Source: Methanolobus psychrotolerans (lineage in GTDB: Archaea; Halobacteriota; Methanosarcinia; Methanosarcinales; Methanosarcinaceae). From it: a stretch of 52,544 bases of DNA. The stretch is taken from the NCBI RefSeq assembly GCF_002243045.1, contig NZ_MBKP01000039.1, positions 1 through 52,544 of the forward strand, in the 5' to 3' direction. The position numbers and the translations under genes are program-made. Shown piece after piece: positions 1,040-49,931 of the stretch; the stretch's first letter is position 1, and each line of letters starts with the position of its first letter. The notes under the pieces were generated by a model. That model was not told where the DNA came from and ran no database searches. It saw only the letters and a program-made list of their open reading frames with translations.

Positions 1040-2122
1040 ATGAATAGAAAAGTAGGTACATTATTACTTATGTTCATGTTGCTTCTGGCTGTGACCGGAT
1101 GCGGATGTATGGAGCAGGCAGGAGAACAACAACCTGTACAGGATATGGGCACCGTGCAGATCAATGACATGTTAGGCAGAGAACTTACAGTTCCCGAAGA
1201 TATCAAATCCGCTGTAGCCACATCCCCGCCGTCCACTATCCTTGTGTATATGCTTGCGCCCGATAAACTTGCAGGGTGGAATTTTATCAATAGTTTCAAC
1301 CACAGTTTGATAGATGAAAAGTATCTCACACTTCCGGTTATAGGGGGCTGGTACGGGACACAGACTGGGAATTATGAAACCATAATCACCATGCATCCGG
1401 ACATAGTGATTGAAGGTTACACCACCGACGGTAAGATAGATGATGCGATACAGCGTCGTCAGGAGATGTTTGGCAGTATCCCTGTTGTTTCCATCGAGGA
1501 TTCTATTATATTCGTAGAAAAATCAGATCCCACAATTGAGTATGTAGGGAACCTGCTAGGAGTTGAAGAGCAGGCTGAAAAACTCATAGAGTTCAGGGCT
1601 TCAATCCTGGATGATATCAACAGCAAGGTGTCAGATATTCCTGAAGACGAAAGAGTGCGCGTATACTATGCAGAAGGCCCTAAAGGACTCATGACAGACC
1701 CCTCCGGTTCCCAGCACTCTCAGGTAATTGACATATGTGGAGGCATTAATGTCGCCGACTGTCCGCTTACTCCCGGAAACGGCATGACACCTGTATCCAT
1801 GGAACAGATAATAAGCTGGAAGCCGGAAGTGATTCTTGCTTCCAGCCCTCAGTTCTACTCAGCGGTATATTCTGATCCACTCTGGGCAAACCTGGATGCA
1901 GTTAAGAACAAACGTGTGTATCTTGCACCGCAGAACCCCTTCTGCTGGATAGACAGGCCACAGGGACCGCACCTTATAATAGGAACCGCCTGGACCGCAA
2001 AAATGCTGTATCCCGAACTCTTTGAAGATATGGATCTTGAACAGCTGACCCGTGAGTTCTACGTGGATTTCTTCCATTATGAACTCACGGATGATGAACT
2101 AAACTCGCTGTTAAATCCGTAA
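1040..2122 (+). CDS. ABC transporter solute-binding lipoprotein, BtuF/FecB family (possible molybdate/tungstate or metal-complex binder)
   Basis: This 360-residue protein has a lipoprotein signal ending in the lipobox VTGC (Cys21), so it should be anchored outside the membrane. The rest fits the Peripla_BP_2 (FecB/BtuF) fold: an N-terminal lobe starting near INDMLGRELTVP, a linking helix, and a C-terminal lobe (about 205-355) ending in GTAWTAKMLYP and a helix with EFYVDFFHY. It is the first gene of a five-gene operon with closely spaced or overlapping genes. It would deliver ligand to the permease at 4527 and ATPase at 5537. Family members carry siderophores, haem, cobalamin or, for Haemophilus MolA, molybdate and tungstate. 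The ModE-like boxes upstream and the molbindin remnant downstream favour an oxyanion or Mo/W complex here, but the ligand is inference. GGTG upstream of ATG at 1040 supports the start. Confidence 0.85.
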   Translation: MNRKVGTLLLMFMLLLAVTGCGCMEQAGEQQPVQDMGTVQINDMLGRELTVPEDIKSAVATSPPSTILVYMLAPDKLAGWNFINSFNHSLIDEKYLTLPVIGGWYGTQTGNYETIITMHPDIVIEGYTTDGKIDDAIQRRQEMFGSIPVVSIEDSIIFVEKSDPTIEYVGNLLGVEEQAEKLIEFRASILDDINSKVSDIPEDERVRVYYAEGPKGLMTDPSGSQHSQVIDICGGINVADCPLTPGNGMTPVSMEQIISWKPEVILASSPQFYSAVYSDPLWANLDAVKNKRVYLAPQNPFCWIDRPQGPHLIIGTAWTAKMLYPELFEDMDLEQLTREFYVDFFHYELTDDELNSLLNP

Positions 2123-2136
2123 ACAGAGGCGAAAAT

Positions 2137-2760
2137 ATGAAGGAAAATGGCAACTCTCCGGGTTTCCCGTATATTGCGGAGCATATCTTTGCTCCCATAT
2201 ACCCTATTATAGCGGCCCGTATAATCAAAGAGAGCGGAATTAAGGAAGGCATTTGCCTGGACCTGGGATGCGGTATAGCATCCCTGGGAATTGCTGTGGC
2301 AGAACTTAGCCCTATGCAGATATATGCTGTTGATATGTCACAGGAGATGTGCGAACTCTCAAAGGACAAAGCATACCGCCATGGTGTAACTGATCGAGTT
2401 ACACCTGTGCATGCTGACGTTCATGATCTCCCGTTCCCTGATGGATATGCAGATCTTGTTGTGAGCCGTGGATCGGTCTTTTTCTGGAAAGACCTTCCAA
2501 TCGCCTTTGTGGAAATCGCCCGTGTTCTTGCTCTTGGCGGACAGGCATGGATAGGCGGTGGTTTTGGTACGACGGAGCTGAAAGAACAGATAGCTGAAAA
2601 AATGACCGCTCTAGACCCGAATTGGTCCAATGATTCAAAAAAGCGCCTCAGCCCGGAGAACCTGAGAACCATACAGGAAGCCGGAAGGCAGACCGGACTT
2701 GCATGCCATACAGTGCATGATGGCTCTGGATTCTGGGTAGTGATAAGCAAGGGAGGCTGA
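2137..2760 (+). CDS. Class I SAM-dependent methyltransferase
   Basis: The 207-residue protein has a Rossmann-fold methyltransferase signature: motif I LDLGCGIASLG near residues 43-53, an acidic end of strand 2 (YAVDMSQEM), and the post-motif DLPFPDGYADLVVSRGSVFF typical of Methyltransf_11. It begins 14 bases after the solute-binding protein stop, with AGAGGCG as ribosome-binding site, and ends 3 bases before the radical SAM gene, so it belongs to the transport operon. The substrate is unknown. With a transporter and a radical SAM enzyme around it, it may modify a small metal-binding ligand or the imported complex, but nothing in the sequence proves this. There are no membrane segments or signal, so it is cytosolic. 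Confidence 0.85.
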   Translation: MKENGNSPGFPYIAEHIFAPIYPIIAARIIKESGIKEGICLDLGCGIASLGIAVAELSPMQIYAVDMSQEMCELSKDKAYRHGVTDRVTPVHADVHDLPFPDGYADLVVSRGSVFFWKDLPIAFVEIARVLALGGQAWIGGGFGTTELKEQIAEKMTALDPNWSNDSKKRLSPENLRTIQEAGRQTGLACHTVHDGSGFWVVISKGG

Positions 2761-2763
2761 AAA

Positions 2764-4524
2764 ATGCAATGCAGGATATGTGAGATAGGTTGTGACATAA
2801 ACGAACACAGCAGAGGAAGATGTGGTACCTACATGAGCGACGGGAACAGCATATTCCAGGATCCGAATATTGGATACATGGGTGCCTATCAGGTTTCGAT
2901 CGAAACCATACCCATGCTACATTTCTATCCGTCGGGAAAGTTCATGCAGGTCTTCAGCACCGGATGCAATTTTAATTGCTCAGGCTGCGTGGCAAGGCTC
3001 CTTGCCTCGAACCGGTCGCTTGGCTGGCCGACCTTAAGCCCTTTACAGGTAGTTGACAAAGCACTGCAGGAGGACTGCATTGGCGTTGTTTCGACACTCA
3101 ACGAACCTGCTGCCAACTACTATAATTTCAAGAAACTTGCAATACTTGCGAGAGAGCACGATCTGCTTGTTGGTTGCTCAACAAACTGCTATTTCACGGA
3201 AGATACACTGGAAGAGCTCGGAAACCTGCTGGATTTCGTGAACGTTGGAATCAAAGGATATTCTGACAACAACTACAGAACATGTGGCGTACATTCGTCA
3301 CAGCCTGTTTTCCGCAATGTGTCAAGACTTGTGGAAATGGGTGTGCATGTAGAAACATCCCTCATGTATTCCAGAGGGAACGAAGATGATCTGATGCAGG
3401 TTGCCAGAAAGCTCTCGGAGATCTCCCAGCAGATACCTGTACAGGTGATGAGGTTCATTCCCTTCGGGGACGCACCCATCAGCCTGGAGCCTTCTATAGG
3501 GGAAACCGAAAGGATATGCAAGTCCCTGCGCGAACACATGGACCATGTATACCTGTTCAATTCACCTGGTACTGATATGTTGCATACCTACTGCCTTCAT
3601 TGCGGTAACCTTCTTGCAGAGCGGGAATTCTACGGACCTATGGGGGCCAGGCTGCTGCATCCATGGACAGATCATAAATGCAGTTGTGGTTACATCGTTC
3701 CTGTTAAAGGTACTGCCTCGATTAAGTTTTTCAATGATGTAGGTTTCACGGGCGGCTACAGGATAAGCCGGGCTTTCAGCATGGTCCATGCCGTGCTCAC
3801 GTGTATGGGTATCCTTGATGACCAGAAACTGCTTGAGGTGTGGGGAGAGATGGTCAATGCCGAAACCCTCATGCAGGTACATCATATGATACAACAGCCT
3901 TCTTCTTATCTTGAGCTGGTCAGGCTCATCGCAGAGAAAGCAGGTACCGAGCAGGAAGGCGAGGAACTGGCTTCCTTTATCCGTGAACGCCTTGAACTGG
4001 TCAGTGCCGTTGCAAAGGAAAACACAGGCCATCCGGTGTATTACTGCATGGGCTCCCCACTTTTTGCCATGAACGCCGGAAGAGCTGAGAACAACCTCGT
4101 GACCTTTGCCGGAGGAATAAGCATCAACAAAGCCTTGCAGAAGGAAGGCAAACCCGGCTTGAATGTGGACCCCGATTTTATCAACAAGAACAACCCGAGA
4201 ACGATCTTCATTTCCGGATTCCTTTCACGTCCCCTCGATGAATTCTACGATCTGTGTAATCAATATGGTATAGTGGCGGATGCCGTGAAGCAGCATAGAG
4301 TCTATGAAATGCCCCCTTCATGGGATTTTGGTAGCCCGCGGTGGATACTGGGGCTTCTCTACATCGCCAGCAAGATGTACCCCGGAAAGCTGGGAATCGA
4401 TCTTAAAGATGAAGCAGATGAGTTCTACCGGCGCTTCTACGGCATCAGTTATGAAGATGCAAGGCCCAACAGGTCGTTCCATCGCCCCACATCAGGCAAG
4501 TGGCCTCTTCAAATGATGAGGTAA
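2764..4524 (+). CDS. Radical SAM protein with C-terminal solute-binding-protein-like lobe
   Basis: This 586-residue protein starts with a Cys-rich stretch (Cys3, 6, 10 and 20) like the N-terminus of AmmeMemoRadiSam/PflA-related enzymes. It then has the radical SAM motif CNFNCSGC (near residues 70-77) that binds the catalytic [4Fe-4S] cluster. A second Cys pair set (YCLHCG and KCSCG, near 277-305) resembles the zinc-ribbon or auxiliary site of that family. A helical region follows. The last part (about 420-575) aligns with the C-terminal lobe of the solute-binding protein encoded first in the operon: shared features are VYY, GGI, DAVK-x2-RVY, a WILGLLYIASKMYP-type helix and an EFYRRF-type end. 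There is no signal peptide, so this ligand-binding lobe lies in the cytosol. GGGAGG overlapping the previous stop is the ribosome-binding site. The reaction is unknown. Confidence 0.8.
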   Translation: MQCRICEIGCDINEHSRGRCGTYMSDGNSIFQDPNIGYMGAYQVSIETIPMLHFYPSGKFMQVFSTGCNFNCSGCVARLLASNRSLGWPTLSPLQVVDKALQEDCIGVVSTLNEPAANYYNFKKLAILAREHDLLVGCSTNCYFTEDTLEELGNLLDFVNVGIKGYSDNNYRTCGVHSSQPVFRNVSRLVEMGVHVETSLMYSRGNEDDLMQVARKLSEISQQIPVQVMRFIPFGDAPISLEPSIGETERICKSLREHMDHVYLFNSPGTDMLHTYCLHCGNLLAEREFYGPMGARLLHPWTDHKCSCGYIVPVKGTASIKFFNDVGFTGGYRISRAFSMVHAVLTCMGILDDQKLLEVWGEMVNAETLMQVHHMIQQPSSYLELVRLIAEKAGTEQEGEELASFIRERLELVSAVAKENTGHPVYYCMGSPLFAMNAGRAENNLVTFAGGISINKALQKEGKPGLNVDPDFINKNNPRTIFISGFLSRPLDEFYDLCNQYGIVADAVKQHRVYEMPPSWDFGSPRWILGLLYIASKMYPGKLGIDLKDEADEFYRRFYGISYEDARPNRSFHRPTSGKWPLQMMR

Positions 4525-4526
4525 TT

Positions 4527-5546
4527 ATGCCTGATCTCAAGCGATATGGCACGATTTGCATTTATCTGTTGCCTTTGGTGCTGCTCTTTAGTTCTCTTTT
4601 TGTGGGAAGATACCAGATATCATCATCCTTTATTATTGATGACATCGTAAGAACCGCATCATTCCTGCTTTTTGCCACCGATGCACCAATATCCACAGAG
4701 CATACAGTATTGTTCAGCATAAGGTTACCCCGCATACTGGCAGCTTTGATGGCAGGTTCCGCCCTTTCTATATCCGGAGCAGCATTTCAAGGCATATTCC
4801 GCAATCCTCTCGTGTCTCCCGATATACTGGGGGTTGGGGCAGGTGCCGGTTTTGGTGCGTGTATTGCAATACTGCTGTATGACAGCTATCTTGCGATACA
4901 GTTGTTATCTTTTATTTTCGGGCTTGTGGCAGTGTTTGCTGCAGTCATCATGGGTAAGGTTAGTAAAGGCACCGGAACACTTGTATTCGTTCTTGCCGGG
5001 ATAATAGTGGCTTCCATATTCAATGCTTTCATATCGCTTGTAAAATATGTGGCAGATCCTTACAATGACCTTCCAGCCATCGTATTCTGGTTCATGGGAA
5101 GTCTCTCCAGCATAAGATATAACGACCTTCACTGGGTCATACTACCAATGCTTGTCGGATCTTTGGTACTGCTCCTTCTTAGATGGCGTATCAATATCCT
5201 TTCATTAGGTGATGAAGAAGCCAGATCACTGGGGGTCAATGCTGGCAGAATGCGTCTGATAATTATCATATGTGCGACCCTTGTTACCTCTGCTGCAGTT
5301 AGTATCAGCGGAGTCATTGGTTGGGTCGGGCTGGTGGTTCCGCATATCTCGAGAATGATAGTGGGGCCTAATTACAATCGTCTGCTGCCAATGAGCATGG
5401 TAATAGGGGCATCATTCATGCTTCTGGTGGACAATCTGGCACGGACAGTCGCTGCAACGGAAATCCCACTCGGTATAATCACCTCACTGCTTGGTGCACC
5501 TCTATTCGCATATCTTCTGAAAAGGGGGCGTATGGGATGGATCTGA
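4527..5546 (+). CDS. ABC transporter permease, BtuC/FecCD family
   Basis: About 339 residues with nine to ten hydrophobic segments and the FecCD family signatures RLPRILAALMAGSALSISG and FRNPLVSPDILGVGAGAGFG near the N-terminus, and GVIGWVGLVVPHISR near residue 265, the region that contacts the ATPase. It forms the membrane channel of the importer. A GTG at 4500 is possible, but ATG at 4527 is preferred: it follows GAGGT at close spacing and starts two bases after the radical SAM stop. The last ten bases overlap the ATPase gene, indicating translational coupling. The family is the type II importer class that includes Haemophilus MolB. Confidence 0.9.
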   Translation: MPDLKRYGTICIYLLPLVLLFSSLFVGRYQISSSFIIDDIVRTASFLLFATDAPISTEHTVLFSIRLPRILAALMAGSALSISGAAFQGIFRNPLVSPDILGVGAGAGFGACIAILLYDSYLAIQLLSFIFGLVAVFAAVIMGKVSKGTGTLVFVLAGIIVASIFNAFISLVKYVADPYNDLPAIVFWFMGSLSSIRYNDLHWVILPMLVGSLVLLLLRWRINILSLGDEEARSLGVNAGRMRLIIIICATLVTSAAVSISGVIGWVGLVVPHISRMIVGPNYNRLLPMSMVIGASFMLLVDNLARTVAATEIPLGIITSLLGAPLFAYLLKRGRMGWI

Positions 5547-6325
5547 TACTGGAAGTTGATTCACTTGCATATTCATATGGTAACGGACCGGTCTTTGAAA
5601 ATGTTTCTTTCTCCATGGGAAATGGGGAGGTCATGTGCGTGCTGGGTCCTAATGGAGCCGGGAAATCCACACTGATCAAATGTATTGCAGGAATATTCAA
5701 ACCGGCTGCTGGATCAGTTCGTATAATGGGAGAAGATACAAGATACCTTGCTTCGGGAACCATAGCCAAAAAAGTAGGATATGTTCCACAGCAGAATGAG
5801 ACAGTGTTCCCTTTTAATGTACTGGACTTTGTGGTTATGGGTCGCACGCCTCATCTTTCCCTTTTTGCTTCACCTGGTGAAGAAGATATGAAAATTGCGC
5901 GGAGATCACTTGAAAAAGTAGGTGTTGAAGACCTTTCAGACAGGACGCTTAACAGTCTCAGTGGTGGTCAGCGTCAAATGGTTCTTATAGCCCGTGCACT
6001 TGCACAGGAGCCTGCGCTGCTTTTACTAGATGAACCAACCTCACATCTTGATTTTGGGAACCAGGTGTTGGTACTGGAAACCGTGCAGAAACTGGCAGCA
6101 TCCGGCATGTCAATCGTCATGAACACACATGCACCAGATCACGCTTTTCTTATTGGTACCAGTGCAGTCGCACTAACGGGGGGCAGGCTCATTGCTTCAG
6201 GTACGGTTACATCGGTTGTTAACAGCCAGATGATGTCATCTGTATATGGTGTAAATGTTGCTGTGAGGGACATAGCAGACATTGACAGAAAAGTGTGCTT
6301 TCCTTGTGGAAGTGGAAAAAATTAG
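5537..6325 (+). CDS. ABC transporter ATP-binding protein, FecE/BtuD family
   Basis: The 262-residue cytosolic ATPase has Walker A GPNGAGKST (about 37-45), a Q-loop in VGYVPQQNE, signature LSGGQRQM (about 140) and Walker B ALLLLDEP (about 160), followed by a switch His in MNTHAPD. It powers the permease encoded just upstream, whose 3' end it overlaps. The length is normal for the family. The operon ends here unless the molbindin remnant at 6459 was once its last gene. Confidence 0.92.
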   Translation: MDLILEVDSLAYSYGNGPVFENVSFSMGNGEVMCVLGPNGAGKSTLIKCIAGIFKPAAGSVRIMGEDTRYLASGTIAKKVGYVPQQNETVFPFNVLDFVVMGRTPHLSLFASPGEEDMKIARRSLEKVGVEDLSDRTLNSLSGGQRQMVLIARALAQEPALLLLDEPTSHLDFGNQVLVLETVQKLAASGMSIVMNTHAPDHAFLIGTSAVALTGGRLIASGTVTSVVNSQMMSSVYGVNVAVRDIADIDRKVCFPCGSGKN

Positions 6326-35566: not shown

Positions 35567-38500
35567 TCACTCCAGAGTATTTAGGGGTATATTAAATATA
35601 AAATTACTGCCATTTCCAACCTCACTCTCGACCCAAATATTGCCACCGTGCATTTCGACCAGTTTTTTGACCAGGGCCAAACCAAGTCCTGTGCCACCGT
35701 ACTTCCTGGAGATAGAACCATCTATCTGTACAAATGGTTCAAAGATCTTGTCTATTTTTTCGTGTTCTATACCGATTCCTGTATCATGTACAGAAAACTG
35801 GACAGTGCCATTGCTGCTTTTCGCTTCTATCGTTATCGAACCTTCATTATGTGTGAACTTGATGGCATTGTCCACAAGATTATACAGTATGTCCTTAAAC
35901 TTGTTCTCATCTGCAATAATATCTGTGAGATCATTATCGGTTTTTGTAATGATTTTAATGTCTTTCTTTAATGCCTTTGTTAAAAGGAGGCCACGGGTTT
36001 GAGATAATAGATCATCTATATTGACACGTTGCAACTGAAGAGGTTCCAGAAGTCCATATTCTGCATTGGTATAGTCCAGTATCCTGTTAACTATAGTCAG
36101 CAGGTCTTGTCCACTTTGGTGAATGTACCTGGCATATTCCTTATGTTTACTTTCATTATTTTCAATGTTTCCACTGAGCAGCAGGTCCGAAAAGCCAATT
36201 ACAGCAGTTAGCGGTGTTCTGAGTTCATGGGTGACATTCTTTAACAGTTCACTTTTCATGCGGTTTGACTCATCCGCAGCAGCCCTGGCATACAGAAGAG
36301 CTTCTTCTGCTTTAATTCTTGGAGTGATGTCTACCTGTGTCCCTATGAGACGATGTGACCGGCCTTTCTCGTCAATCTCTGTAGCCCTGCCTTTCATTGA
36401 AACCCAGATCCATTCACCAGATCTGTGTTTTATTCTTAGGTCTACATGCAGGGGTTCCAGCAAATTAATAGCCGTGTTCATCGTATTTGTAATGGTTTCT
36501 ACATCATCAGGGTGTATCAAACTCAGAAAAGTATACAGATCTTTTGCAAGCTCATCAGGTCCATACCCACTCATTGTATATATCTCGGAACTCATATAGG
36601 TTTCATAAGTATCCAGATCAAGATCCCAGAAACCAGTTGATGAAGCTTCCATTGCAAGTGACAGTCTCTCTTCACTTTCTTTGAGTGCTTTTTCAGCACT
36701 TTTTTGCTCGGATATGTCTATAACTACTGCAATGGCATATAGGATCGAACCATATTCATCTCTGATGACTTTAGAATAAACTTTTACCCAGACATTATGA
36801 CCGTTTTTATGAATATAACACTTTTCGAATTCAGCTGAATCGATCTCTCCTGCAGAGACTTGCATTATGTACTTTTCTTCCAGATGCAAATCATCAGGGT
36901 GCGTGATATCCCTGAAATTCATTGAAATTAATTCATCTGAAGAATAACCCACTATTTCACAGAAACGGCTATTCATCTTCAACAACCGACCATCAGGGGT
37001 GGCCTGAGCAACACCAACAGATGCCTGCTCAAAAACAGTCTTGAATAATTGTTCACTTGCGTGGAGTGCTTTTTCAGTATCCTTGAGAGAAGTTATATCT
37101 TCGTTGACCACAATGACACCCATCAGATCTCCATCATCATCCAGAACCGGAGCTGAGTAGTTTAGGATTATTCTCTTCTCGCCATCAAAAGCATCGATCT
37201 CAAGCATCTCTTGTTCAACCGTTATTCCTTCTCTTATGGTACGGGCCAGTGCCCATTCATCGGGCGCTAACTCTTCTCCTGAAGGAAGCCGTCGGGCTTT
37301 GAAGACCCTGTATTCTCCAATCCCCACGTGCGGCTCAGCACCCCATATACGGACCCCTTCGGGATTCCCGCTCTGTAACTTCCCGTCGCTGTCCACAAAC
37401 CATAATCCGATCGGCAGTATCTCAAATATCTTGCTAAGAAGTTTCTCACGCTTTTTTAGCTCTTCTTCAGCCAGTTTCTGATCAGTTACATCCCAGTTCG
37501 TTCCGATCATATGTAGCGGTTGACCGGATCCATCACGCTGGACGATAGCAAGAGCCCGGATGTTGCGGACAGTTCCGTTATTCCAGACCACCCGGAACTC
37601 GGTATCGAATTCCTTTTCTCCGCGCAGTGCCATCTGTGTTTCAGAATCACATCTCTCCACATCATCAGGATGCAGACCTGTCTTCCAGGCTTCATAGGCA
37701 CCATCAAACTGGTCCGGAGTTATTCCATAGAGGCGGAACATCTGCTCGTCCCATAAGAGTGTGTTATTTTCTATGTCGTAATCCCAAATACCCACACCTC
37801 CGGCACGCGTAGCCAGTATCAGACGGTCACTGGTTTCCTTCAGTGCCTCTTCTGCTTTTTTAGTGTCCGTAATGTCTCTGGTATTTGAAACCACACCCGC
37901 GATCTCACCGTCATTATCTATATATGGGGAATATGTAATATCGACAAAGCGTTTGCCCAATATAGGGTAATGTATCCACGCCTGGTAACTTACGATCTTA
38001 CCCTTCAGGCATCTGTCGAAATATTCCAGGACCTCATTCTCAAAAACTTCCTTCCCAAGATATTCTGCCACGGTAAGCCCGACAAGTTCTTCACGTCCCC
38101 TACCCGAGAACATTTCGTAGGCATTATTAACGGTAACATACCTGTAGTTCTTATCTACGAGAGAAATGCCGTCCTGGGTTGAAGAAACGATCTGTTCGTA
38201 TATTTTCATTTGCTCTTCGAACTGCTTGCGTTCCGAAATATCCCTGCACACGCAGAACACCAGTTTTTGTCCTGAACAGACTGCGCCGTTAGCACTGATC
38301 TCCATATAGATCTCACTGCCGTTCTTATGCCGATGCACCGTTTCGAATTGAAGACCATCGGCATCAATGCCCCGGATCATCTCCAGCAGCTCTTCCTGGG
38401 TCCATTGCTGATCCCAGTCCCATACATGCAGCTCAAGTGTCTCAGCCGGGGAATAACCGAGCATCTCGGCAAATTTCTGATTGGTTTCGAAGACCTTGCC

Positions 38501-41500
38501 GTGCTCATCGAGAACCACTATGCCGTCAGGCGACTGTTCGATGAGGATGCGGCGTCTTATCGCTTCCTCTTCCAGCTTCGCTTCCGCACGCTTTTGATCG
38601 GTTATATCCAATGCAACACTCAGCACAGCATCCTTTCCCTGCCAGTGTACACGCTTTGTGCTTACTTGCAATGGGAACTTTGTACCATCCTTCTTAATAT
38701 GCCATGCTTCAAAGGATGCACTGCCTTTGTCCATTATCTCCTGCATTCTTTCAGAGATCTTCTGAGCGGTCTGTGGATCATCTAACTGTTGCAGATTAAG
38801 TTGTGCAGCTTCATCCTGCGAGTATCCATGCAATTTGTATGTATTCGGATTTGAATACAAGATATTGCCTTCAAAATCATGAACGGTGATCGAAGCCGGA
38901 GAAGTTGTCATAAGGCTTGCCAGAACCTGCATCTTTTCGTCGGATTCCCTCTTTTCAGTGATATCCTGATGCGTTCCTATACACTTGATGGGAATGCCAT
39001 TCCTGTCCAGCATGAATCGTGATCGTGACTGCCATATGCGCTCCTTCCCGTCAGGAAGCACAACACGAAACTCTATAGGCCAGGCCCTGCGCAGCTCGAA
39101 CATTTTCTTTTTCTCTTCTTCTACAAAGCTGCGATCATCAGGGTGCACCAGGTCGCTCATGAGGCTATCTATGTTACCTGAGAAAGTCTCATCTGAAAGC
39201 CCGGCTAACTTCAAGAGGTTACTGGAGTATTCCAGCGAACCATTCTCAAGATCACAAACAAAGGAACTAATGTTTGCTATGGACTGGGCATCGCTCAGGA
39301 ATGACTCGCTCTCCCGGAGAGCTTCTTCGGCACGTTTGCGCTCGGTTATATCCAAAAGGATGCAATGTGTCTGCTCGAAGCTGCCATCGATCTTGTGACC
39401 GATCCGCCCCTCAAAACTGATGAGCCTTCTCTCGCCCGTCTTGTGAAGCATCTCAAATTCCGACTGAATTATTCCTTTCGCTTTAAAAACAGGAAAACGC
39501 TCACAGTACACTTCTACGAACTCCGGAGCAAGGAAATCACCAAACCATTTGCCAATGACCTCCTCACGTTTGTATCCCAGTGTCTCCAACCATGCTTCGT
39601 TCACCATCAAAAAGCGTCCTTCATCATCAAGAGACTGGTAACCCAGAGGAGCTTGTTCAAACAACTGGGCAAAGCGCTCTTCGCTTTGGCGCAAGGCTTT
39701 CTCGGCCTGCTTACGCTCAGAAATATCCCTGCACACGCAGAACACCAGTTTCTCACCGTTGCATATCGCCCCGTTAGTACTGATCTCAACATCAAGGAAA
39801 CTACCGTCCTTGCGTCGGTGGCGTGTTTCAAACCGGTCACCGGTTTCATTAACATCCCTTACCATCTCAAGCAGTTGCTCTCGTGTAAATTCAGTGTCCC
39901 AGCCCCATAAATACAACTGAGAGACCTCCTCCGGAGAATAACCAAGCATATCAGCAAATTGCTGGTTAGCCTCGTAAACCTTACCATTCTCATCAAGGAC
40001 AACAATACCATCACCGGACTGATCGATAAGAATACGACGCCTGATCACTTCGTTCTCTAACGCTTCTTCTGCCTTTTTACGCTCGGTAATGATCTCCGTG
40101 TAGACTACGATACCGCCTATTGAGCCATCTGCCTCGTACCAGGGACGGCATTCCCAGCGTGTCCAGTCCACTGAACCGTCTTCCCTCTCATAAGGATCTT
40201 CTTCTGAACTGGATACAATCCCCTGCAAAGCCTTTTGGTGAACATCTCTCCATTTTTGAGGCAGATCCGGAAATACATCATAATGGTGCTTTCCAATAAC
40301 ATCCTCTTCCTTTACCTTATACTCATCAAGATAACGCTGACTGACATAGATATACTTCAAGTCCCTGTCATGAACTGCGACGGCGCTTTGGGTGTGCCCA
40401 ATAATATAATGCATCAATTCATGAGAATGGCCAAGTTCATTTAGTGTCCTGGCAAGTTTGATGTTGCTATAGCTTAGCGTTGAGATCATATCAGTCAGCT
40501 TGGTGTAGAACGCCATTACTGTTTCCACTTTTGTCCTATCCAGGCGTGGTACTCTTTCAAGAGCTTCCAGATATTCATTTTCATCAAATCCATATTTATT
40601 TGCCTGCAATCTGAAAGTCTCGTATGGCAGTTCCTCATCATCGAAGAAGAACTGTCCAAAGAACAGGTTCCCCATATGTGAGTCACCCACCATAATGGGA
40701 GTTGAAATGTCCCACATATTATTCTTGCATCTGTAAAGCTTAAATGTGTCAGGAGACACACCTTTTGACAATTGTGTATCACTTTCAATACAATTAGCAC
40801 ATGTTTTTGGATTTACTCGATGAAACTTTGTGCATATATCCTGCCAGCTAGTAGCGACCAAAACCTTACCATGAAGATCAACAATAGCACCACCACCAAT
40901 TTGGGTCAATTGGAAAAAATCATCCATTAATGATTGTAGGGCTTCATGATCAATGATGTCTGCAAGTTCCAGAGTTCCGATATCGCCTTCCGGTTCCACA
41001 ATGGCACTTAACTTCCTTTTTACGTGGGCTTCACTCTTACGCAAGGCATCTTCCATTACCTTACGTTCGGTGATATCCAGGCAATGACCTATATAACCTA
41101 TGAACTGCCCTGTACTGTCGTAGCGGGGTGAACCATCATCAATTACCCATCTGTATTCACCATCATGCCTGCGCAGACGATACTCCATGGAGAATTTTTC
41201 GCGCCTGTCAAAGGCATCCGAATAGGTCTTCAGACAATTCTCCATATCATCCGGGTGAACATTGTCAAGCCACCCTTCACCCAGGTCCTGCTCAAGTGTA
41301 CGTCCGGTGAATTGCATCCAGGGCAAATTAAAGTAATTACAAAGCCCGTCTTTTCCGGAAGTCCAGATCAAAGCCTGACCGGTATTAGCAAGCGTCCGGT
41401 AATTTTGTTCACTCTCCCTGAATGCCTTCTCTGCAGCGATCTTGTGAAGAGCGAAACTCAGATCATCTGCAATTTCAACGAATAAGTCCTGTTCTTCCTT

Positions 41501-43132
41501 GTCATGGGCAAATTCGGAGGGGATCATGACAGCAAGTAAACCATATACCCTGTCACCAAACTGCAATCTATTGGCCATTCCAGACATTCCCGTATGCTCA
41601 CAGGATAAAGAACAATCAGCACAATTGGCATCCGGGTGATCGACAATTACAATATCGTTATGTTCAAGGGCCAGGGTCATGCAGAATGGCAAATTGCCAC
41701 TTTCCAATTGCTTTTTTATAGCCGCACAGCCGATCTCAACCCCCGAAACAGCCGTGGCCGTTACAGACCCATTCGTATCCAGGAGCACCATCCATGCATT
41801 GTAATAACCAAGCGTTCCGGTAAGGTTGGAGCAAGCCTGCTCTATAAGGCGATCGGGATCGTTCTCCCGCACAAGCAACTGATTTACGTTCCTGACAGCC
41901 AGAAGTACCTGTTTAAGGTGCTGTTCGCGTTCTTCAGCTTGCTTGCGCTCAGTGATGTCACGCAAGAAACAGAAAAGACCCTGACCTGCTTTTTCCGAGT
42001 ATGCTGTACTGACCTCTATAGTTAATATCCTGCCATCTTTTGTCTGGTGTTTTGTTTCGAAACGGTCAATTCCCCTCTCTTTCACCTTACAGATATGGGC
42101 AGCGGCCTGTTCCGGATCCTCGTTTACATCCAGATCGGAGATGCTCATCCCAAGCAGTTCCTCACGTGTGTAACCGGTGAGCCTGCAGTATGCATCGTTC
42201 ACTTCACAGATCCTACCTTCCATGTCCAGATGCCAGTAGCCGTCAATAGAGGTCTCGATGGTGGTTCTGTATAGTTCTTCACGTGCAATTATTGTGTATT
42301 CTGCTTCTTTAAAAGCGGTGATATCCACACCAAATATTGCAAGTTTTTCTGTTTTCCCTTCATGGTCAAAAACCGGGTAGATAGAATTGTGAATAATATG
42401 TCCGTTACGCTCATCTTCAAAATGAACAGGTTTGCCTTTTGCAACTACTTCATCGGCTTTTTGTCTTCGTCTTTTTGCCACATCTTCTGAAACAAAGTCG
42501 TAGATATTCTTTCCCCTAAGCATCCCAACAGAAGTTCCCATGCGCTGCGCAACGGTTTCGTTGGATGCGAGGACTTTCCCTGTGATATCAATAAGCAATA
42601 CGGACTCAGTGGAAGCGTTAAGGAGAGCATGAATATCCTTCTCACTATCTCCCAAGTCCATGAGTGACCTATTCATCTCTGTAATGTCTACTATTAATCC
42701 AATAAGGCCGGCGACTTTACCAGAATGATCAGTAAAAGCTATTTTATGAAAGACCACGTCCTTTTCCAAACCATCCGGCGACATTACCTTCCATTGGTAT
42801 ATCTGCTTGCCTTGTTGCTCGAACAGCTTCCGGTCCATATTCTCATATTTTTCTGCAAGTTCCCGCGGTCCCATGTCATAGACTGTCCTGCCTATGATCT
42901 CTTCTTTTGGCTTTCCGGTAAACTCTTCAAATGCCCTGTTACATCCAATGTACTTTCCGGAAATATCTTTATAGAATACAGGTTCAGGAATGGTTTCAAG
43001 TAATGCTTCCACAAAAACAGGATTATTGTTATTTTCACCATTCTTGCATACATGCTCTGTACGACCATCATTACCATGTGAAATTGATTGACGGTTTTTT
43101 CCGTATTCTTCCGAAGGAGCAATTTTTGTCAT
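35567..43132 (-). CDS. Giant sensor histidine kinase with 15 PAS, one GAF and one PocR domain
   Basis: A 2521-residue cytosolic kinase. By eye the order is: three PAS domains (about 35-390), a GAF domain with a CADCSLSC cluster (about 395-590), one PAS, a PocR-type sensory domain (about 715-890) with CANC near 777, eleven more PAS domains (about 900-2270), HisKA with His in THELRTPLTA (about 2303), and HATPase with [12 protein letters not shown] (about 2477). The PAS borders are marked by recurring DITERK-type ends. Two PAS units (about 1024-1137 and 1521-1634) are near copies. No membrane span or receiver is present; the small response regulator follows six bases downstream. PocR domains are believed to sense small organic molecules, and related methanogen kinases control methyl-substrate genes, but the ligand here is unknown. 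Confidence 0.93.
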   Translation of the reverse strand: MTKIAPSEEYGKNRQSISHGNDGRTEHVCKNGENNNNPVFVEALLETIPEPVFYKDISGKYIGCNRAFEEFTGKPKEEIIGRTVYDMGPRELAEKYENMDRKLFEQQGKQIYQWKVMSPDGLEKDVVFHKIAFTDHSGKVAGLIGLIVDITEMNRSLMDLGDSEKDIHALLNASTESVLLIDITGKVLASNETVAQRMGTSVGMLRGKNIYDFVSEDVAKRRRQKADEVVAKGKPVHFEDERNGHIIHNSIYPVFDHEGKTEKLAIFGVDITAFKEAEYTIIAREELYRTTIETSIDGYWHLDMEGRICEVNDAYCRLTGYTREELLGMSISDLDVNEDPEQAAAHICKVKERGIDRFETKHQTKDGRILTIEVSTAYSEKAGQGLFCFLRDITERKQAEEREQHLKQVLLAVRNVNQLLVRENDPDRLIEQACSNLTGTLGYYNAWMVLLDTNGSVTATAVSGVEIGCAAIKKQLESGNLPFCMTLALEHNDIVIVDHPDANCADCSLSCEHTGMSGMANRLQFGDRVYGLLAVMIPSEFAHDKEEQDLFVEIADDLSFALHKIAAEKAFRESEQNYRTLANTGQALIWTSGKDGLCNYFNLPWMQFTGRTLEQDLGEGWLDNVHPDDMENCLKTYSDAFDRREKFSMEYRLRRHDGEYRWVIDDGSPRYDSTGQFIGYIGHCLDITERKVMEDALRKSEAHVKRKLSAIVEPEGDIGTLELADIIDHEALQSLMDDFFQLTQIGGGAIVDLHGKVLVATSWQDICTKFHRVNPKTCANCIESDTQLSKGVSPDTFKLYRCKNNMWDISTPIMVGDSHMGNLFFGQFFFDDEELPYETFRLQANKYGFDENEYLEALERVPRLDRTKVETVMAFYTKLTDMISTLSYSNIKLARTLNELGHSHELMHYIIGHTQSAVAVHDRDLKYIYVSQRYLDEYKVKEEDVIGKHHYDVFPDLPQKWRDVHQKALQGIVSSSEEDPYEREDGSVDWTRWECRPWYEADGSIGGIVVYTEIITERKKAEEALENEVIRRRILIDQSGDGIVVLDENGKVYEANQQFADMLGYSPEEVSQLYLWGWDTEFTREQLLEMVRDVNETGDRFETRHRRKDGSFLDVEISTNGAICNGEKLVFCVCRDISERKQAEKALRQSEERFAQLFEQAPLGYQSLDDEGRFLMVNEAWLETLGYKREEVIGKWFGDFLAPEFVEVYCERFPVFKAKGIIQSEFEMLHKTGERRLISFEGRIGHKIDGSFEQTHCILLDITERKRAEEALRESESFLSDAQSIANISSFVCDLENGSLEYSSNLLKLAGLSDETFSGNIDSLMSDLVHPDDRSFVEEEKKKMFELRRAWPIEFRVVLPDGKERIWQSRSRFMLDRNGIPIKCIGTHQDITEKRESDEKMQVLASLMTTSPASITVHDFEGNILYSNPNTYKLHGYSQDEAAQLNLQQLDDPQTAQKISERMQEIMDKGSASFEAWHIKKDGTKFPLQVSTKRVHWQGKDAVLSVALDITDQKRAEAKLEEEAIRRRILIEQSPDGIVVLDEHGKVFETNQKFAEMLGYSPAETLELHVWDWDQQWTQEELLEMIRGIDADGLQFETVHRHKNGSEIYMEISANGAVCSGQKLVFCVCRDISERKQFEEQMKIYEQIVSSTQDGISLVDKNYRYVTVNNAYEMFSGRGREELVGLTVAEYLGKEVFENEVLEYFDRCLKGKIVSYQAWIHYPILGKRFVDITYSPYIDNDGEIAGVVSNTRDITDTKKAEEALKETSDRLILATRAGGVGIWDYDIENNTLLWDEQMFRLYGITPDQFDGAYEAWKTGLHPDDVERCDSETQMALRGEKEFDTEFRVVWNNGTVRNIRALAIVQRDGSGQPLHMIGTNWDVTDQKLAEEELKKREKLLSKIFEILPIGLWFVDSDGKLQSGNPEGVRIWGAEPHVGIGEYRVFKARRLPSGEELAPDEWALARTIREGITVEQEMLEIDAFDGEKRIILNYSAPVLDDDGDLMGVIVVNEDITSLKDTEKALHASEQLFKTVFEQASVGVAQATPDGRLLKMNSRFCEIVGYSSDELISMNFRDITHPDDLHLEEKYIMQVSAGEIDSAEFEKCYIHKNGHNVWVKVYSKVIRDEYGSILYAIAVVIDISEQKSAEKALKESEERLSLAMEASSTGFWDLDLDTYETYMSSEIYTMSGYGPDELAKDLYTFLSLIHPDDVETITNTMNTAINLLEPLHVDLRIKHRSGEWIWVSMKGRATEIDEKGRSHRLIGTQVDITPRIKAEEALLYARAAADESNRMKSELLKNVTHELRTPLTAVIGFSDLLLSGNIENNESKHKEYARYIHQSGQDLLTIVNRILDYTNAEYGLLEPLQLQRVNIDDLLSQTRGLLLTKALKKDIKIITKTDNDLTDIIADENKFKDILYNLVDNAIKFTHNEGSITIEAKSSNGTVQFSVHDTGIGIEHEKIDKIFEPFVQIDGSISRKYGGTGLGLALVKKLVEMHGGNIWVESEVGNGSNFIFNIPLNTLE
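38230..38570 (-). repeat. Duplicated PAS unit, copy B, in the giant kinase
   Basis: This segment encodes a PAS domain that closely matches the one at 39720-40060. Both share RRRILI, DGIVVLDE, NQxFAxMLGYSP and LVFCVCRDISERKQ, and the DNA string CCCTGCACACGCAGAACACC occurs in both. Recent internal duplication or gene conversion is likely. Confidence 0.8.
39720..40060 (-). repeat. Duplicated PAS unit, copy A, in the giant kinase
   Basis: The partner of the copy at 38230-38570, about 1.5 kb away in the same gene, in the same orientation and frame. Three other PAS domains lie between the copies, so this was either a multi-domain duplication followed by divergence or a transposed copy. Confidence 0.8.
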
Positions 43133-43406: not shown

Positions 43407-46400
43407 TTACAGTTCTTTCAAATGAGATACTAACAATTCAAACTTGCTTTCCATTTCCATCATCAAAGCTGCAGCCTCGTTGATCTTGCCTGCCTTGGAG
43501 AGGCTTTCCATATCTGCAGCAGTTTTGCTAAGATCTTCAGCTCCTATGTTTCCAGATGAACCTTTTATCTTATGAGCATACTGATTGACCCCCTCCATTT
43601 CCCCAGTATCTATAGCCTTTTTTAATGCATCCAACTGCATTGGTGCATCTTTCAGGAAAATATCTATTAAGCGTCTGGCCAGGTCTATATCATCCATCAT
43701 TCTTTCCATGAATGACTTTTTATTGAATATCAGAGGATCTGTCGGGACCTCCATTTCTCCTGTAGTATTGTCTGCATGACTTTTTTCTTGAATAGTGTGT
43801 GGCCATTTATTCATTAGATCAATAAGTGACTGCATTGAAACCGGTTTTGGGATATAATCATTCATACCGGCTTCAAGGCAACGTTCTTTGTCACCTGTCA
43901 TGGCATGTGCGGTCATTGCTATGACAGGAATATCATGATCATGTACCGCAGACAGAGGATCTCTTATGTGCCGGGTAGCTTCCAGTCCGTCCATCCCGGG
44001 CATCTGTACATCCATAAACACCAGGTCGTATGAATTATTTTCAAGAGCCTTTATTGCTTCTTCACCGTTACTTGCAATATCTGCACTAAAACCCAGTTTT
44101 TGCAGCATGCTCTGGGCCACGTTCTGGTTTACGATGTTATCCTCAACCAGCAAGATCCTCAGATCGCTGCTGGAAATTTCATGCGTATAACGGTCTTTTA
44201 GATGAGAATGTGACTTTGGTACTTTTTTGTCCATGCTAAGTATATTGCACAGAGTGTTGTACAGCTCAGATGCTCTGACCGGCTTGCTAAGATAAGCTTT
44301 GAAGTTTGTTCTATCCTGCAATTGGGAGCCGGGATGGTGTCCCAGAGAACTTAGCATTATCAGGGAACTGTTCTTGAGCTTTGGATCAGACCCAATGACA
44401 CGGGCAAGGGAGTCACCATCCATTCCCGGCATCTGCATATCTAACAGCGCTGCCTGGAAAGGTTCACCTGCATCATATGCCCTGTTGAGAGCCTGAAGAG
44501 CCATTGGACCGTCCTCGGCCATTTCTGCTTTTATCTTCCACGAAGAGAGTTGTTTGGCAAGTATCTCGCGATTGGTGGCATTATCGTCCACCACAAGCAC
44601 ATGTGAACCCTCGATCACAGAAGACAGTTTCTCCTTGCATAGACCTTCTGCCTCTGATCCATTGGCAAAGCTGAGAGTGAACCAGAACTCTGAACCTTTG
44701 CCTTCATTGCTCTGAACACCGATCTCACCCCCCATCATTTCCACAAGTTGCTTGGAAATTGCAAGACCAAGTCCTGTACCACCATACTGGCGTGTTGTAG
44801 AAGCATCTACCTGGCTGAACTTATTAAAAAGAATATCTTTTTTGTTATCTGGTATGCCAATACCGGTGTCTTTGACTGAAAAGCGCAATGTGGCGGTAGA
44901 GTCTGTTTCAGATCCAAGGGTCACACGTACCACTACCTCGCCTTGCTCTGTGAACTTGATCGCGTTGTTGACCAGATTTATCATTACCTGCTTTAAACGG
45001 CCAGGATCTCCCCGGATACATGGAGGTACGTTCGGTTCTGCGGCACATATGAATTCCAGACCCTTATCATGAGCCTTTACCGATAGCATGTCAGCCATAT
45101 CCTCAAGTAGTTCGTGCAGATCGAAGTCCAGCTCTTCAAGCTCTAACTTACCGGCCTCTATCTTGGAGAAGTCCAGTATATCATTGATAAGTCCAAGCAA
45201 TGTCTCCCCGCTGTTCTGTACCGTATCTGCGTAATGCCTTTGCTCTTCATTTAGCTCAGTATCCAGAAGCAGCCCGGTCATGCCAATAATACCGTTCATT
45301 GGTGTGCGTATCTCATGGGACATGTTGGCGAGGAACTCGGATTTTGCCATGTTTGCAGCTTCTGCCTGTAATTTTGCATTTCTCAGGGAAGTCACATCAA
45401 TTCCGTATTCCACAACACCTTTTATGTTCCCAAGCTTGTCCTTAATAGGAGATATCGACAACTGAAGTGCCTTCCCGGTTTTGATCTCGCGTATGTCCTC
45501 AGGAGTTGTTTCATCGAAAACTTGTTTTCCTGTCGATATGACTTCCTGAACTTTACACCAGGGGCATGGAGATGATCTTTGCATATACGTTTCGTAGCAT
45601 TTTGTACCGATAATATCACTGGCAGAATCATATTTTGTCAGTTTCAACCTGAAATCAGCATTGTTGAGAGTAATAATATTGTATTCAGTATCAACTACAT
45701 TAAGAGTTCCCGGAAGAATGTCAATTATTGATTGCAGTTGTGCCCTGCTGTTTTCCAGATCATTGTAATTCTTACTGTTTTTCAGAGCTATGGCAGCGTA
45801 TTCACCAAATGTTTGCGCAAGTCTGGCATCATTTTCGTCAAAGTCTCCATCTTTATGGGAAAAACCCATAATTCCTTCGGTTTTGCCATCTACATTCAAG
45901 GGGGAAAACAGGACATTGGGTAAGACCATATGCCCTTCTGGCATATATTCCAGCCATTTGCTCTTCATGAAATCATTATCATACACTACCTGCCCTGTGG
46001 CGTATGCTTCAGCACGCAGTCCTCTTAAAGGCATTGGCAGATCCGGGTTCACAGAACATGGCATACCCCCATCTTCCAAAAACAGTAATTCATTCTCTTC
46101 CCCTGATTTTGACAAAAGTGCCACATATCCGGCCTTTGCCCCTATAACCCGTGCACAAGCATCGAATATGCGCCTTCCAGCGTCTTCAAAATTATTGCTT
46201 TCAAGGATGGCATGAGTTGCATTGAGAAGTTCTTCAATTTCAGTTTCTTTTTGGAGAGAATTATTTAGTGACTGCTTCAGATCTAACTCTGCCTGTTTGC
46301 TTTGCGTTACATCCGTATGGGAACCCGCCATTCTGTAAGGAATACCATTTTCGTCCACAAGAGATGAACCTCTTGCCAGTATCCATATATATTCCCCATT

Positions 46401-49400
46401 TTTGTGTCTGAAGCGGAATTCAATGTGATACTCAGAGATATTTCCTTGCAGATAATTTTGCATATAGTCCATCACTCTGACTCTGTCATCAGGATGGATA
46501 TGTTCCTTAAATGTAGAGAAATCATTGGGGAGCTCGGAATCCTCATAACCTATCATCTCTTTCCACCTGGGAGACAGGTATAAACTGTCATCACGCAGGT
46601 CCCAGTCCCATATGCCATCCCGGGAACCATTTACAGCCAGAATAAATTGTTCATGGCTTTTTTCAAGCTCATCTGCGTATGTCTGCAATTTTTTCTCTGA
46701 AAGTTTACGTTCTGTGACATCTATATGAGAAATAACAACTTTGCGTGGAAAAGAATCAGTACTTTCAAAAGGCCGGACCTTACCTATGAACCACCTTTCT
46801 TTTTCCGGGGAATGACATGGGTATTCAAGTTTAAAAAAATCAATTTTTCCCGACATTACATCTTCAATACCTTTGGCGAATTTCAATCCCAGGTCTGAAT
46901 CTTTACCATCTGAACTTTTTGCTATTTCAATATAATTTGATCCTTCACTTACTTTGCCAATATCTGCAGAATTAGCAATAGCAAAATCCATCCATGACTT
47001 GTTTGTTTTTATGATATTGCCGGTTTCATCCAGTACACAAATATTCGCATCTAAAGAATCAAGGGTGGATTGGTTAAGGGAATTTAGATCTTTAATTGTT
47101 TGTTCTGCATACCAGTTATCTGTAATATCACGGCCTACACCCACCAATCCGAGAATATCTCCTGCAGAGTTGAATAAAGGTGCTTTAAGCGTGTCAAGTA
47201 AAACTTTTTTGCCGTTTGGATAACCTACCCATTCTTCGTTGTGTCTGGCTTTACCTTCTTGCACCATAGTTGCGTCATTCATTCTGAAGAAATCAGCAAG
47301 CTCCTTATTGAATAGGTCGTAATCTGTATGACCGATGATCCTTTCTCTATCCCTGCCTACAAAAGTCAAGAATTCAGGATTGCATCCCAGATATACTCCC
47401 TGAAGGTCTTTGAAGAATATCATATCAGGTATTGAATCAAGAAGGCTTTTTAATAGAGACTTTTCCTTTTCAAGTATCTCTTCTGCCTTTTTGCGGTCGG
47501 TAATGTCTCTAACAACAGCAATAACCTTGTATTCACCAAAAGAAGCCATCTTGCATTCAAAATGCCCCATTTCATTTTTAACAGGCATTTGATATTCTAT
47601 TGTTTCTGTTAACTGTTCTTTTATAACTTTATCAATGCCTATTTTAAGTTCAGTAGCCAGTTTTTTTGGTAGAACTTCAAATATGTTTTTGTTTAAAAAC
47701 ATCTCTTTAGGCATAGCCAGTTTTTCATCATCCGCTGATTTATAATCAACAAATACACCATCAATATCTAGAACAAATACCAAATCCGGAATAGCTGCGA
47801 TCAAGGATTTATTGTACAAATTACTATTTGACAAAGCCTCATCGGCCTTCTTACGCTCTGTGATATCTCTTATTGCTGCTACACGAACCTGACGATCAGC
47901 ACGTGTGAGATCATATGCTTCAATTTCAAGGGGCACTAATGATCCGTCTTTTCTTACTCCACGAATTTCATAGGGTTTTGCAGTATTTTTAGCCATCTGC
48001 TGCCTGACAATATCAAGATCATCAGGATAAATGAGCATTGGTAATATATTCTTGCCTAATAGTTCATCGCGTGTATATCCCATTATGCGGGTCAGTGCCT
48101 CATTGACCTCAACGACTACACCATTTTCATGAATAATTATGCCTTCAAATGTTACATCTGAGAGCAAGCGATATTTTTCTTCACTCCGGGCCAACTCATC
48201 TTCCATTAGCTTGCGGTCAGTAATATCTCTGGCTATTCCTTCCAGGGCTATTAAATTTCCATTTTCATCATAAATGAAGACATTCTTTTGCTCTGACCAG
48301 ATAATTTCCCCATCCTTTCTTATCCAGCGGAGCGTAGCAGTAGTCCTGTCTGGATCGCCTTTTGACATACTTTCCAGCAGTTGACGATCATCAGGATGCA
48401 CAAGCTTAAAACCAAGATCAGGGTCTTCATAATGCTCTTGTGGGGAATACCCTGTGATCTTTGTGGCAGCAGGACTAACGTAAGTGAATCCTCTCTTAGG
48501 CGCAAATTCATAGCGATATATCAGGTCATTGGCATTTTCAGCCAATCTCCTGAAACGTTCCTCGCTCTCACTGAGTTTCCTTTCTGCATTCTTACGTTCA
48601 GTGATGTCCTGGAACACAGTAGCAAAGATATCCGTGTCTACACGATATGCACTTATGTTGTAGTATCGCTGCAATGGTTCAGAGAAATCTTCAAAATTAA
48701 CAGGGATACCAGTACTTACGACTTTACCATATTTTTCAATAAAAGACGTTCTTTCAATACCCGGAAGAACTTCAGTTGCACGTTTTCCCAGAACATCGTC
48801 AACTTTCAATCCTGTATGCTTCTCAAATGTTTCATTTGCCTCAAGGAACACATAGTCAACCGGATTGCCTTGTTCATCACGGATCATCTTATGGATAGCC
48901 ACACCACTAATAGAATGTTCAAAGAGGCCACGGAATTTTTCTTCACTCTCCCGCAACGCCCCCTCTGCGCCTATATGTCTTATAATATTCCATACAGAAT
49001 CCATGAGCAAAGTAAGCTGAAGTGTATCGTTCTCATTGTAAGCTGAATCTTTGTTGGCAACCCCGACCACAGCGACTATCCGGTCATTTCTGAAAATTGG
49101 TACTGTCATGAATCTATGGAGCTTAACATGACCCTCAGGATAACCTTTTTTCAGTATATTCGGGGCATTGAAATCGTTTACTATTACTGTCTTACGTTGT
49201 CTGACCGCTTCCCCCCATATGCCTGTGTTGTCCAGATCATAAGTTGTCTGGGGTTTGGTAATTTCACATTCCTTCATTACATCTTTAGACCACGTGTTAA
49301 GAGTGAACTTCTTTTTTGTTTCACTGTAGTAATATATATAACCAAATTTGCTTTCAGTGAGCTTAATGGCTTCATTGAGTGCAAAATCAAGAAACTCCTG

Positions 49401-49931
49401 GATAGAATCGTGTCTGGACTGCAGGATATCTACAAGGCTCCGTAATCTGGCCTCTCTAAGAAGTAGCTCATTTTCAACTCTTTTTTGCTCAGTGATATCG
49501 GAAATCACGCCTATGATACCTTCCACGTTGCCATTTGTACCTGTTATGGTTGCTTTGTCAAAGATGACATCTCTGATATCGCCATCTTTGGTCTTAACTT
49601 GCCCTTCATACCGTTGTTTACCATGTTTTTGATAGAGCTCTTTGTCCTTCTCTGAATACTTGTCGGCTATTTCCTCTGGTCCTATTTCATACACAGTCTT
49701 ACTGATAATCTCTCCACGGGTCAGTCCGATAAGTTTCTCAAAGGCCTTATTGCAGTCAGTATACTTCCCTTGTGAATCTTTATAAAATACAGGTTCTGGT
49801 ATGGTTTCCAGAAGAGTTCTCAGAAAATTGGCCTGCCATTTTGACAGATAATTAATGTCAGATATCCAAGCGTTTTCTTCGTCTGTTTCTGAGGATAAAA
49901 ATGATTTATGACCAGAAGACATTTTTTTCAT
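43407..49931 (-). CDS. Giant hybrid sensor histidine kinase (9 PAS, 2 GAF, HisKA, HATPase, 2 REC, HPt)
   Basis: A 2174-residue cytosolic protein. The order by eye is PAS, GAF (about 160-325), seven PAS, GAF (about 1255-1410), and a PAS with a Cys cluster ([12 protein letters not shown]). The kinase core follows with His in [10 protein letters not shown] (about 1539), HATPase with [15 protein letters not shown]1 with Asp in [11 protein letters not shown] (about 1832), REC2 with Asp in [12 protein letters not shown] (about 1974), and HPt with His in [12 protein letters not shown] (about 2119). Both receivers keep their acidic pair and Lys, so a full phosphorelay within one chain is possible. 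The first PAS ([14 protein letters not shown]) is nearly the same as that of the 2521-residue kinase, and the C-terminal half matches the 857-residue kinase at 17188. AAGGA lies before the start; ATG at 49922 is an alternative. No DNA-binding output is present. Confidence 0.94.

Follow-up and report, generated by a model that had tools for sequence, protein, structure and literature searches.

A solute-binding lobe on a cytosolic radical SAM enzyme: a methanogen cassette whose gene company points to molybdenum or tungsten

The binding lobes of class III solute-binding proteins (SBPs) are known from the cell surface. What, then, is one of them doing in the cytosol, at the end of a radical SAM enzyme? 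The question is raised by the window, i.e., the whole stretch of 52,544 nucleotides from Methanolobus psychrotolerans analyzed here, in which a tight, co-directional cassette of five genes (positions 1040-6325, + strand; Table 1) encodes an SBP lipoprotein, a methyltransferase, the radical SAM enzyme, a FecCD permease, and an ATPase. The cassette is conserved in nine close relatives, and the fusion of half an SBP to radical SAM chemistry is conserved across several methanogen families; no description of a radical SAM/Peripla_BP_2 fusion was found in the open-access literature. The answer preferred here, to which we give an even chance, is that the enzyme processes in the cytosol an imported molybdenum or tungsten (Mo/W) species or chelate, the five genes forming an uptake-and-processing cassette. 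If this is true, the cassette would reveal a step, so far undescribed, that links the uptake of the metal to the Mo/W enzymes on which methanogenesis and nitrogen fixation depend.

Table 1. Coordinates of the cassette genes and of parts of the enzyme in the window, and of the divergent fusion genes at other loci
Feature	Position	Strand	Evidence
Class III (FecB/BtuF-type) solute-binding lipoprotein, 360 aa	1040..2122	+	Pfam Peripla_BP_2 86.5 bits; PDB matches
Class I SAM-dependent methyltransferase, 207 aa	2137..2760	+	Pfam Methyltransf_11 74.8 bits
Radical SAM enzyme fused to solute-binding-protein lobe, 586 aa	2764..4524	+	ORF, Pfam, BLASTP, profile-profile, AF2, structural alignment
AmmeMemoRadiSam-like radical SAM part, enzyme residues 1-316	2764..3711	+	TIGR04337 81 bits; invariant Cys; PFL-activase Z 18.2
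CX3CX2C radical SAM cluster motif (C68, C72, C75)	2965..2988	+	Invariant in 38/38 homologues
Helical segment in place of SBP N-lobe beta-sheet, enzyme residues 333-393	3760..3942	+	AF2 secondary structure
Backbone helix + C-terminal lobe of class III SBP, enzyme residues 396-569	3949..4470	+	Pfam, hhalign, VIA-align Z 17.8-20.4
FecCD-type importer permease	4527..5546	+	Pfam FecCD 298 bits
ABC importer ATPase	5537..6325	+	Pfam ABC_tran 119 bits
Divergent-clade fusions	L070:9415-11142, L072:762-2555, L073:7600-9348, L074:8096-9856, L076:7255-9018, L082:7342-9105, L083:7502-9325

The ORF caller starts the permease at a GTG (4500), overlapping the enzyme gene; the alternative ATG at 4527, 2 nt past the enzyme stop, is the likelier start. 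No Rfam match to an RNA regulator was obtained in the window and eight related loci, and a scan for promoters and terminators, whose model is bacterial and unsuited to an archaeon, returned promoter-like sites at background level.

Is the end of the enzyme really a solute-binding lobe? The earlier note on this DNA had claimed a resemblance to the operon lipoprotein, and all of the comparisons agree with it. Pfam places Peripla_BP_2 at enzyme residues 379-518 (30.6 bits, cut-off 27.5), BLASTP aligns residues 386-569 with residues 166-355 of the lipoprotein encoded two genes upstream (E 4e-7), and the two family profiles match with a probability of 98.9% and an E of 1.2e-17 (hhalign). The motifs singled out by that note do occur in the same order in enzyme and SBP, respectively: VYY (425-427 and 208-210), GGI (450-452 and 234-236), PxxIxxS (478-484 and 262-268), DAVKxxRVY (506-514 and 286-294), the ILG...YP helix, and EFYxxF (553-558 and 339-344).

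The structure prediction and superposition that the note had proposed lead to the same conclusion. The AlphaFold2 (AF2) model of the enzyme, whose input alignment comprised 38 family members, has a mean pLDDT of 89.8 and a pTM of 0.89; going by the high pTM, the model is confident about how the two domains are placed relative to each other. Its residues 335-569 match a series of class III SBPs, i.e., 4hn9 (Z 20.4 over 219 residues, rmsd 2.4), CeuE (Z 18.9), YiuA (Z 18.5), 4pag (Z 17.9), and MolA (Z 17.8), and the heme SBPs IsdE and RhuT and the B12 SBP BtuF are structural neighbors as well. In the model, both the backbone helix (396-419) and the C-lobe are complete. The two lobes with a cleft between them that make up an SBP are not found: only one lobe is present, as the note had supposed, because the preceding residues 333-393 are all helical, with zero beta-sheet. 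Since the structural alignment begins at about residue 335, some of these modeled helices may be a remnant of the other lobe. The note's claim of a cytosolic location also stands, as the protein begins with MQCRICEIGCDIN, a Cys cluster, and has no hydrophobic leader, export signal, or lipobox. The enzyme thus shares with the class III SBPs the fold of the backbone helix and C-lobe, but differs from them in its single lobe, its fusion to an enzyme, its want of an export signal, and its invariant polar residues.

As for the N-terminal half, it belongs to the radical SAM superfamily (PF04055 at residues 64-215, 53.1 bits, cut-off 29.5). All 38 homologues share cysteines 3, 6, 10, 20, 68, 72, 75, 277, 280, 306, and 308; because the whole set is invariant, the sequences suggest one or two further metal sites in addition to the radical SAM cluster. 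Homology to AmrS extends over residues 1-298 and includes the N-terminal Cys cluster, the CX3CX2C motif, and a CxxC near residue 277. However, AmrS ends at ~340 aa without a lobe, and the operon partners of the enzyme are an importer and a methyltransferase. The corresponding model, TIGR04337 (AmmeMemoRadiSam), matches residues 1-294 with 81.1 bits, well under its cut-off of 220, and none of the five cassette proteins carries an AMMECR1 or MEMO annotation in Pfam or NCBIfam. The same genome encodes a separate AmrS, 28% identical to the enzyme. In structural alignments, the closest fold to the radical SAM part is PFL activase (residues 33-264, Z 18.2); NifB matches residues 45-330 (Z 16.3), although the NifB model of NCBIfam does not match the enzyme.

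Where did the lobe come from? The earlier note took it for a duplicate of the lobe of the operon SBP, a reading that is not supported. When 103 lobes (42 enzyme tails and 61 SBP lobes) are placed in one tree, the 42 tails form one clade with support 100, outside all of the SBP lobes, and the operon SBPs (n = 26) form a clade of their own; a joint clade of enzyme tails and operon SBPs is not rejected (AU p 0.33). Moreover, the profile of the enzyme tails gives higher scores to other SBPs (84 and 90 bits at loci L061 and L062, and 63 bits for one on a Rhizobium plasmid) than to the operon's own (45 bits). Neither the tree nor the profile scores support a copy. The Rhizobium gene belongs to an SBP-FecCD-ATPase operon (L119:6545-10125, NZ_CP072166.1) whose last gene encodes a ModA-like SBP_bac_11 protein; its FecB-type SBP, nearer to the enzyme lobe than is the SBP of the window, provides a ligand lead for this SBP group.

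The binding-site residues tell a related story. The invariant charged residues of the SBP (E212, H226, D305, and R306) are M429, E442, F522, and G523 at the equivalent positions of the enzyme, whose own invariant polar residues are R440, E442, N455, K463, D521, and R526. The scaffold is common to both, and both putative sites are strongly constrained; because the invariant sets differ, the chemistry of the two sites is predicted to differ. The note's further idea, that the enzyme recognizes the ligand brought in by the transporter and then modifies or opens it, is a possibility. Could the lobe, then, be no binding site for cargo at all? It might be a sensor, dimerization, or docking module, with the radical SAM part activating a protein, in the manner of PFL activase, or maturing a metalloenzyme and the cargo of the importer left untouched. 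The PFL-activase fold, the homology to AmrS, the SBP's charged residues not being kept, and the copies of the enzyme beside nitrogenase genes that lack an intact methyltransferase (see below) would all suit such a role; the conserved polar set of the lobe, however, is what is expected of a binding site, and the SBP class comes and goes with the enzyme. On balance we regard this role as improbable.

Another question concerns what the importer carries. The solved structures nearest to the operon SBP are 4pag, 4ovk, and MolA (HI1472); the homology to MolA spans the full length of the protein (profile E 2e-41, residues 37-343), with 4pag nearer still. ModABC importers, by family, take up the free oxyanion. 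The known Mol and Mod systems, importers of oxyanions, are not known to involve a radical SAM enzyme or a methyltransferase.

Heme and B12 are also carried by FecBCD-type importers, and this offers another logic: the importer would deliver a tetrapyrrole or corrinoid, whose ring the enzyme would open or modify without oxygen. A precedent exists in ChuW/HutW, the radical SAM enzymes through which heme is used anaerobically (PMC10035031). Their systems likewise pair a FecBCD-type importer with a cytosolic radical SAM enzyme acting on its cargo; IsdE, RhuT, and BtuF being neighbors of the lobe would fit too. These enzymes, however, belong to another radical SAM family and have no SBP lobe, and no HutW/ChuW-type family appears among the NCBIfam matches of the enzyme at E values up to 1. 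The operon SBP falls far under the cut-offs of the BtuF, IsdE, and F420-0 models; with the permease and ATPase also under the curated cut-offs, an importer for heme, B12, or F420-0 was rejected as a candidate. Finally, no heme-related gene was seen in the cassettes, and the gene company speaks of Mo/W rather than tetrapyrroles, so that this explanation appears very unlikely.

How firmly are the enzyme and the importer tied to each other? When 393 genomes of the phylum were searched for lobe-bearing relatives, tail matches were found in 52 genomes of 17 genera, a few of them weak ones that are fragments or plain SBPs. The SBP class, defined by at least 369 bits to the operon SBP profile (the next matches score 237 or less), is encoded by 43 of the 49 genomes that have the enzyme and by none of the 25 that do not (Fisher p 2e-14, with related genomes counted as independent). 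The association holds without exception within four genera (7/7 with the enzyme versus 0/17 without it, 2/2 versus 0/3, 9/9 versus 0/1, and 4/4 versus 0/1). Operon linkage accounts for part of this co-occurrence, although in four genomes (G247, G281, G349, and G414) the SBP is encoded elsewhere than the enzyme. Given the 43/49 and 0/25 counts, the enzyme and the importer probably share a pathway, in agreement with the functional tie drawn in the earlier note.

At the level of single loci, the most constant neighbor of the enzyme is the methyltransferase, which lies within 3 kb at 36 of the 41 main-clade loci; at 32 loci the two genes are co-directional and no more than 60 bp apart. The SBP is found within 3 kb at 26/41, the permease and the ATPase at 24/41 each. 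As the transporter is locally absent at ~40% of the loci, the importer and the enzyme need not share an operon.

That the methyltransferase is a more constant partner than the transporter lends some weight to the main rival of the Mo/W reading. Might the methyltransferase and the enzyme make a metallophore, the lobe holding the nascent chelator, while the importer recovers the metal-loaded form? Further methyltransferases and DUF364, a family for which siderophore or pterin synthesis has been suggested (PMC2954201), lie near several loci. Nevertheless, the cassette includes no exporter and no enzyme that would build the scaffold, such as an NRPS or a ligase, and at one locus (L064) ModABC takes the place of FecBCD. 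This biosynthetic route we therefore consider unlikely, if still the strongest of the rivals.

Some variants of the cassette deserve mention. In G281, a tail-less relative of the enzyme (L123:2282-3286, 334 aa; 37% to one family member and 30% to AmrS) is accompanied by a methyltransferase, an ATPase, and a protein of 774 aa in which two operon-type SBPs stand in tandem. This arrangement is possibly an ancestral or a reduced form, and its similarity to the cassette implies that the lobe is dispensable in some versions. The WDFGSPRW motif that marks the main clade is missing from a second, more divergent clade of fusions (~34% identity; Table 1). At L070 a divergent fusion stands tail-to-tail with a main-clade copy, and at L083 genes for nitrogenase assembly and an AnfO-like gene are ~5 kb away from one. 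The fusion gene of G088 (L087:7332-9071) is interrupted by an in-frame TAA near codon 354, in the stretch that connects the radical SAM part to the lobe, reflecting either an assembly error or a real split. In the plasmid collection, AmrS and SBP matches occur separately, but the complete fusion is in none of the records.

Which cargo, then, does the gene company suggest? It points to molybdenum or tungsten, a context that the earlier note did not anticipate, and MolA being one of the nearest solved relatives of the SBP points the same way. At L064, modA, modB, modC, the methyltransferase, and the enzyme follow each other on one strand, with ModABC standing in for the FecBCD importer directly upstream of the methyltransferase-enzyme pair; modA and modB score above their curated cut-offs (TIGR01256, 156 bits versus 62.5; TIGR02141, 232 bits versus 182.6). 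Other enzyme genes have ModA (L081) or ModB/ModC (L072) nearby, Mod-like genes lie near the tail-less relative of L123, and at L065 the neighbors include genes for formylmethanofuran dehydrogenase subunits. In three related genomes (G348, G367, and G409), an SBP paralogue lies 0.7-0.9 kb upstream of fmdEFACDB, co-oriented with it and, in two of the three, 67-68% identical to the SBP of the window; the fmdE family is named for the Mo-formylmethanofuran dehydrogenase. These three SBPs may go back to one inherited event. As a control, loci around other FecB-type SBPs were considered: Mo-linked genes occur at 0/12 of these versus 11/41 enzyme loci, a modest contrast.

A further lead comes from the second copies of the enzyme. 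The four sampled genomes with AnfG/VnfG, and no others, have such a copy, which in every case is oriented divergently to nifH of an alternative nitrogenase, 0.89-0.94 kb away. These copies keep their clusters and are under purifying selection (dN/dS 0.13-0.23), and their methyltransferase is lost or a fragment; all four may stem from one inherited event. One of the four genomes, which we take to be Methanosarcina acetivorans C2A, appears to have two enzyme copies, one of them beside the alternative nitrogenases; a second, broken AnfO-like gene (L055:8015-8625) is adjacent to this nitrogenase-side copy. In titles and abstracts of the open-access literature on the M. acetivorans vnf/anf locus, no mention of the enzyme gene was found. 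Together with the radical SAM fold, the adjacency to nitrogenase genes recalls NifB and the assembly of the nitrogenase cofactor, although the enzyme is without a NifB-model match and its occurrence does not track the Mo-nitrogenase. Less probably, the enzyme and the methyltransferase might build or mature an unrecognized Mo/W-bearing small molecule or organometallic cofactor of methanogens, with the lobe presenting the metal to the radical SAM site, as a NifB-like maturase outside nitrogenase; we hold such a role to be improbable. The Mo-nitrogenase was also rejected as the driver of the distribution: almost every member of the genus of the window has nifD, with the enzyme or without it.

DUF364 was considered as an obligate partner as well. 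It lies within ~7 kb of the enzyme in 8 of 49 genomes and shows no genome-level correlation with it, so that this candidate was set aside. Its presence nearby nonetheless fits the Mo/W reading, as genes of this family are described in the context of transporters for iron, tungstate, vanadium, and molybdate (PMC2954201).

How could the cassette work, if the Mo/W reading is right? From the gene company, a role in the supply of Mo/W, possibly also of vanadium, is inferred. The importer would take up the Mo/W species, as oxyanion or chelate. In the cytosol, the half-SBP lobe would pack on the radical SAM domain, which would stand for the missing N-lobe; it is from this architecture that the lobe may be expected to hold a ligand against the radical SAM domain, be it the metal-bearing species (oxyanion or chelate) or the organic ligand of that species. 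A 5'-deoxyadenosyl radical would then modify whatever the lobe holds, and the methyltransferase would act just before or after, in the same short pathway. Several observations count against the Mo/W reading: the lobe is without the invariant charged residues of the SBP, the FecB relatives near the SBP include the siderophore binders YiuA and CeuE, the importer is missing from a good part of the loci, a tail-less relative exists, and neither Mo-nitrogenase nor DUF364 tracks the enzyme.

Other genes around these cassettes and in the window invite attention in their own right. Two tandem paralogous SBPs, ~75% and ~60% to that of the window, precede the methyltransferase at L090:4502-6800 and L091:10973-13266, and this arrangement recurs in several species of the genus. 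In related archaea, two Peripla_BP_2-type units are joined in a single chain of 666-761 aa (L094:6281-8536, L096:7150-9435, and L062:248-2248). Finally, the minus strand of the window encodes two giant sensor histidine kinases, one of 2521 aa with many PAS domains and a PocR sensory domain (35567-43132) and the other of 2174 aa with many PAS domains and GAF, receiver, and Hpt domains (43407-49931).
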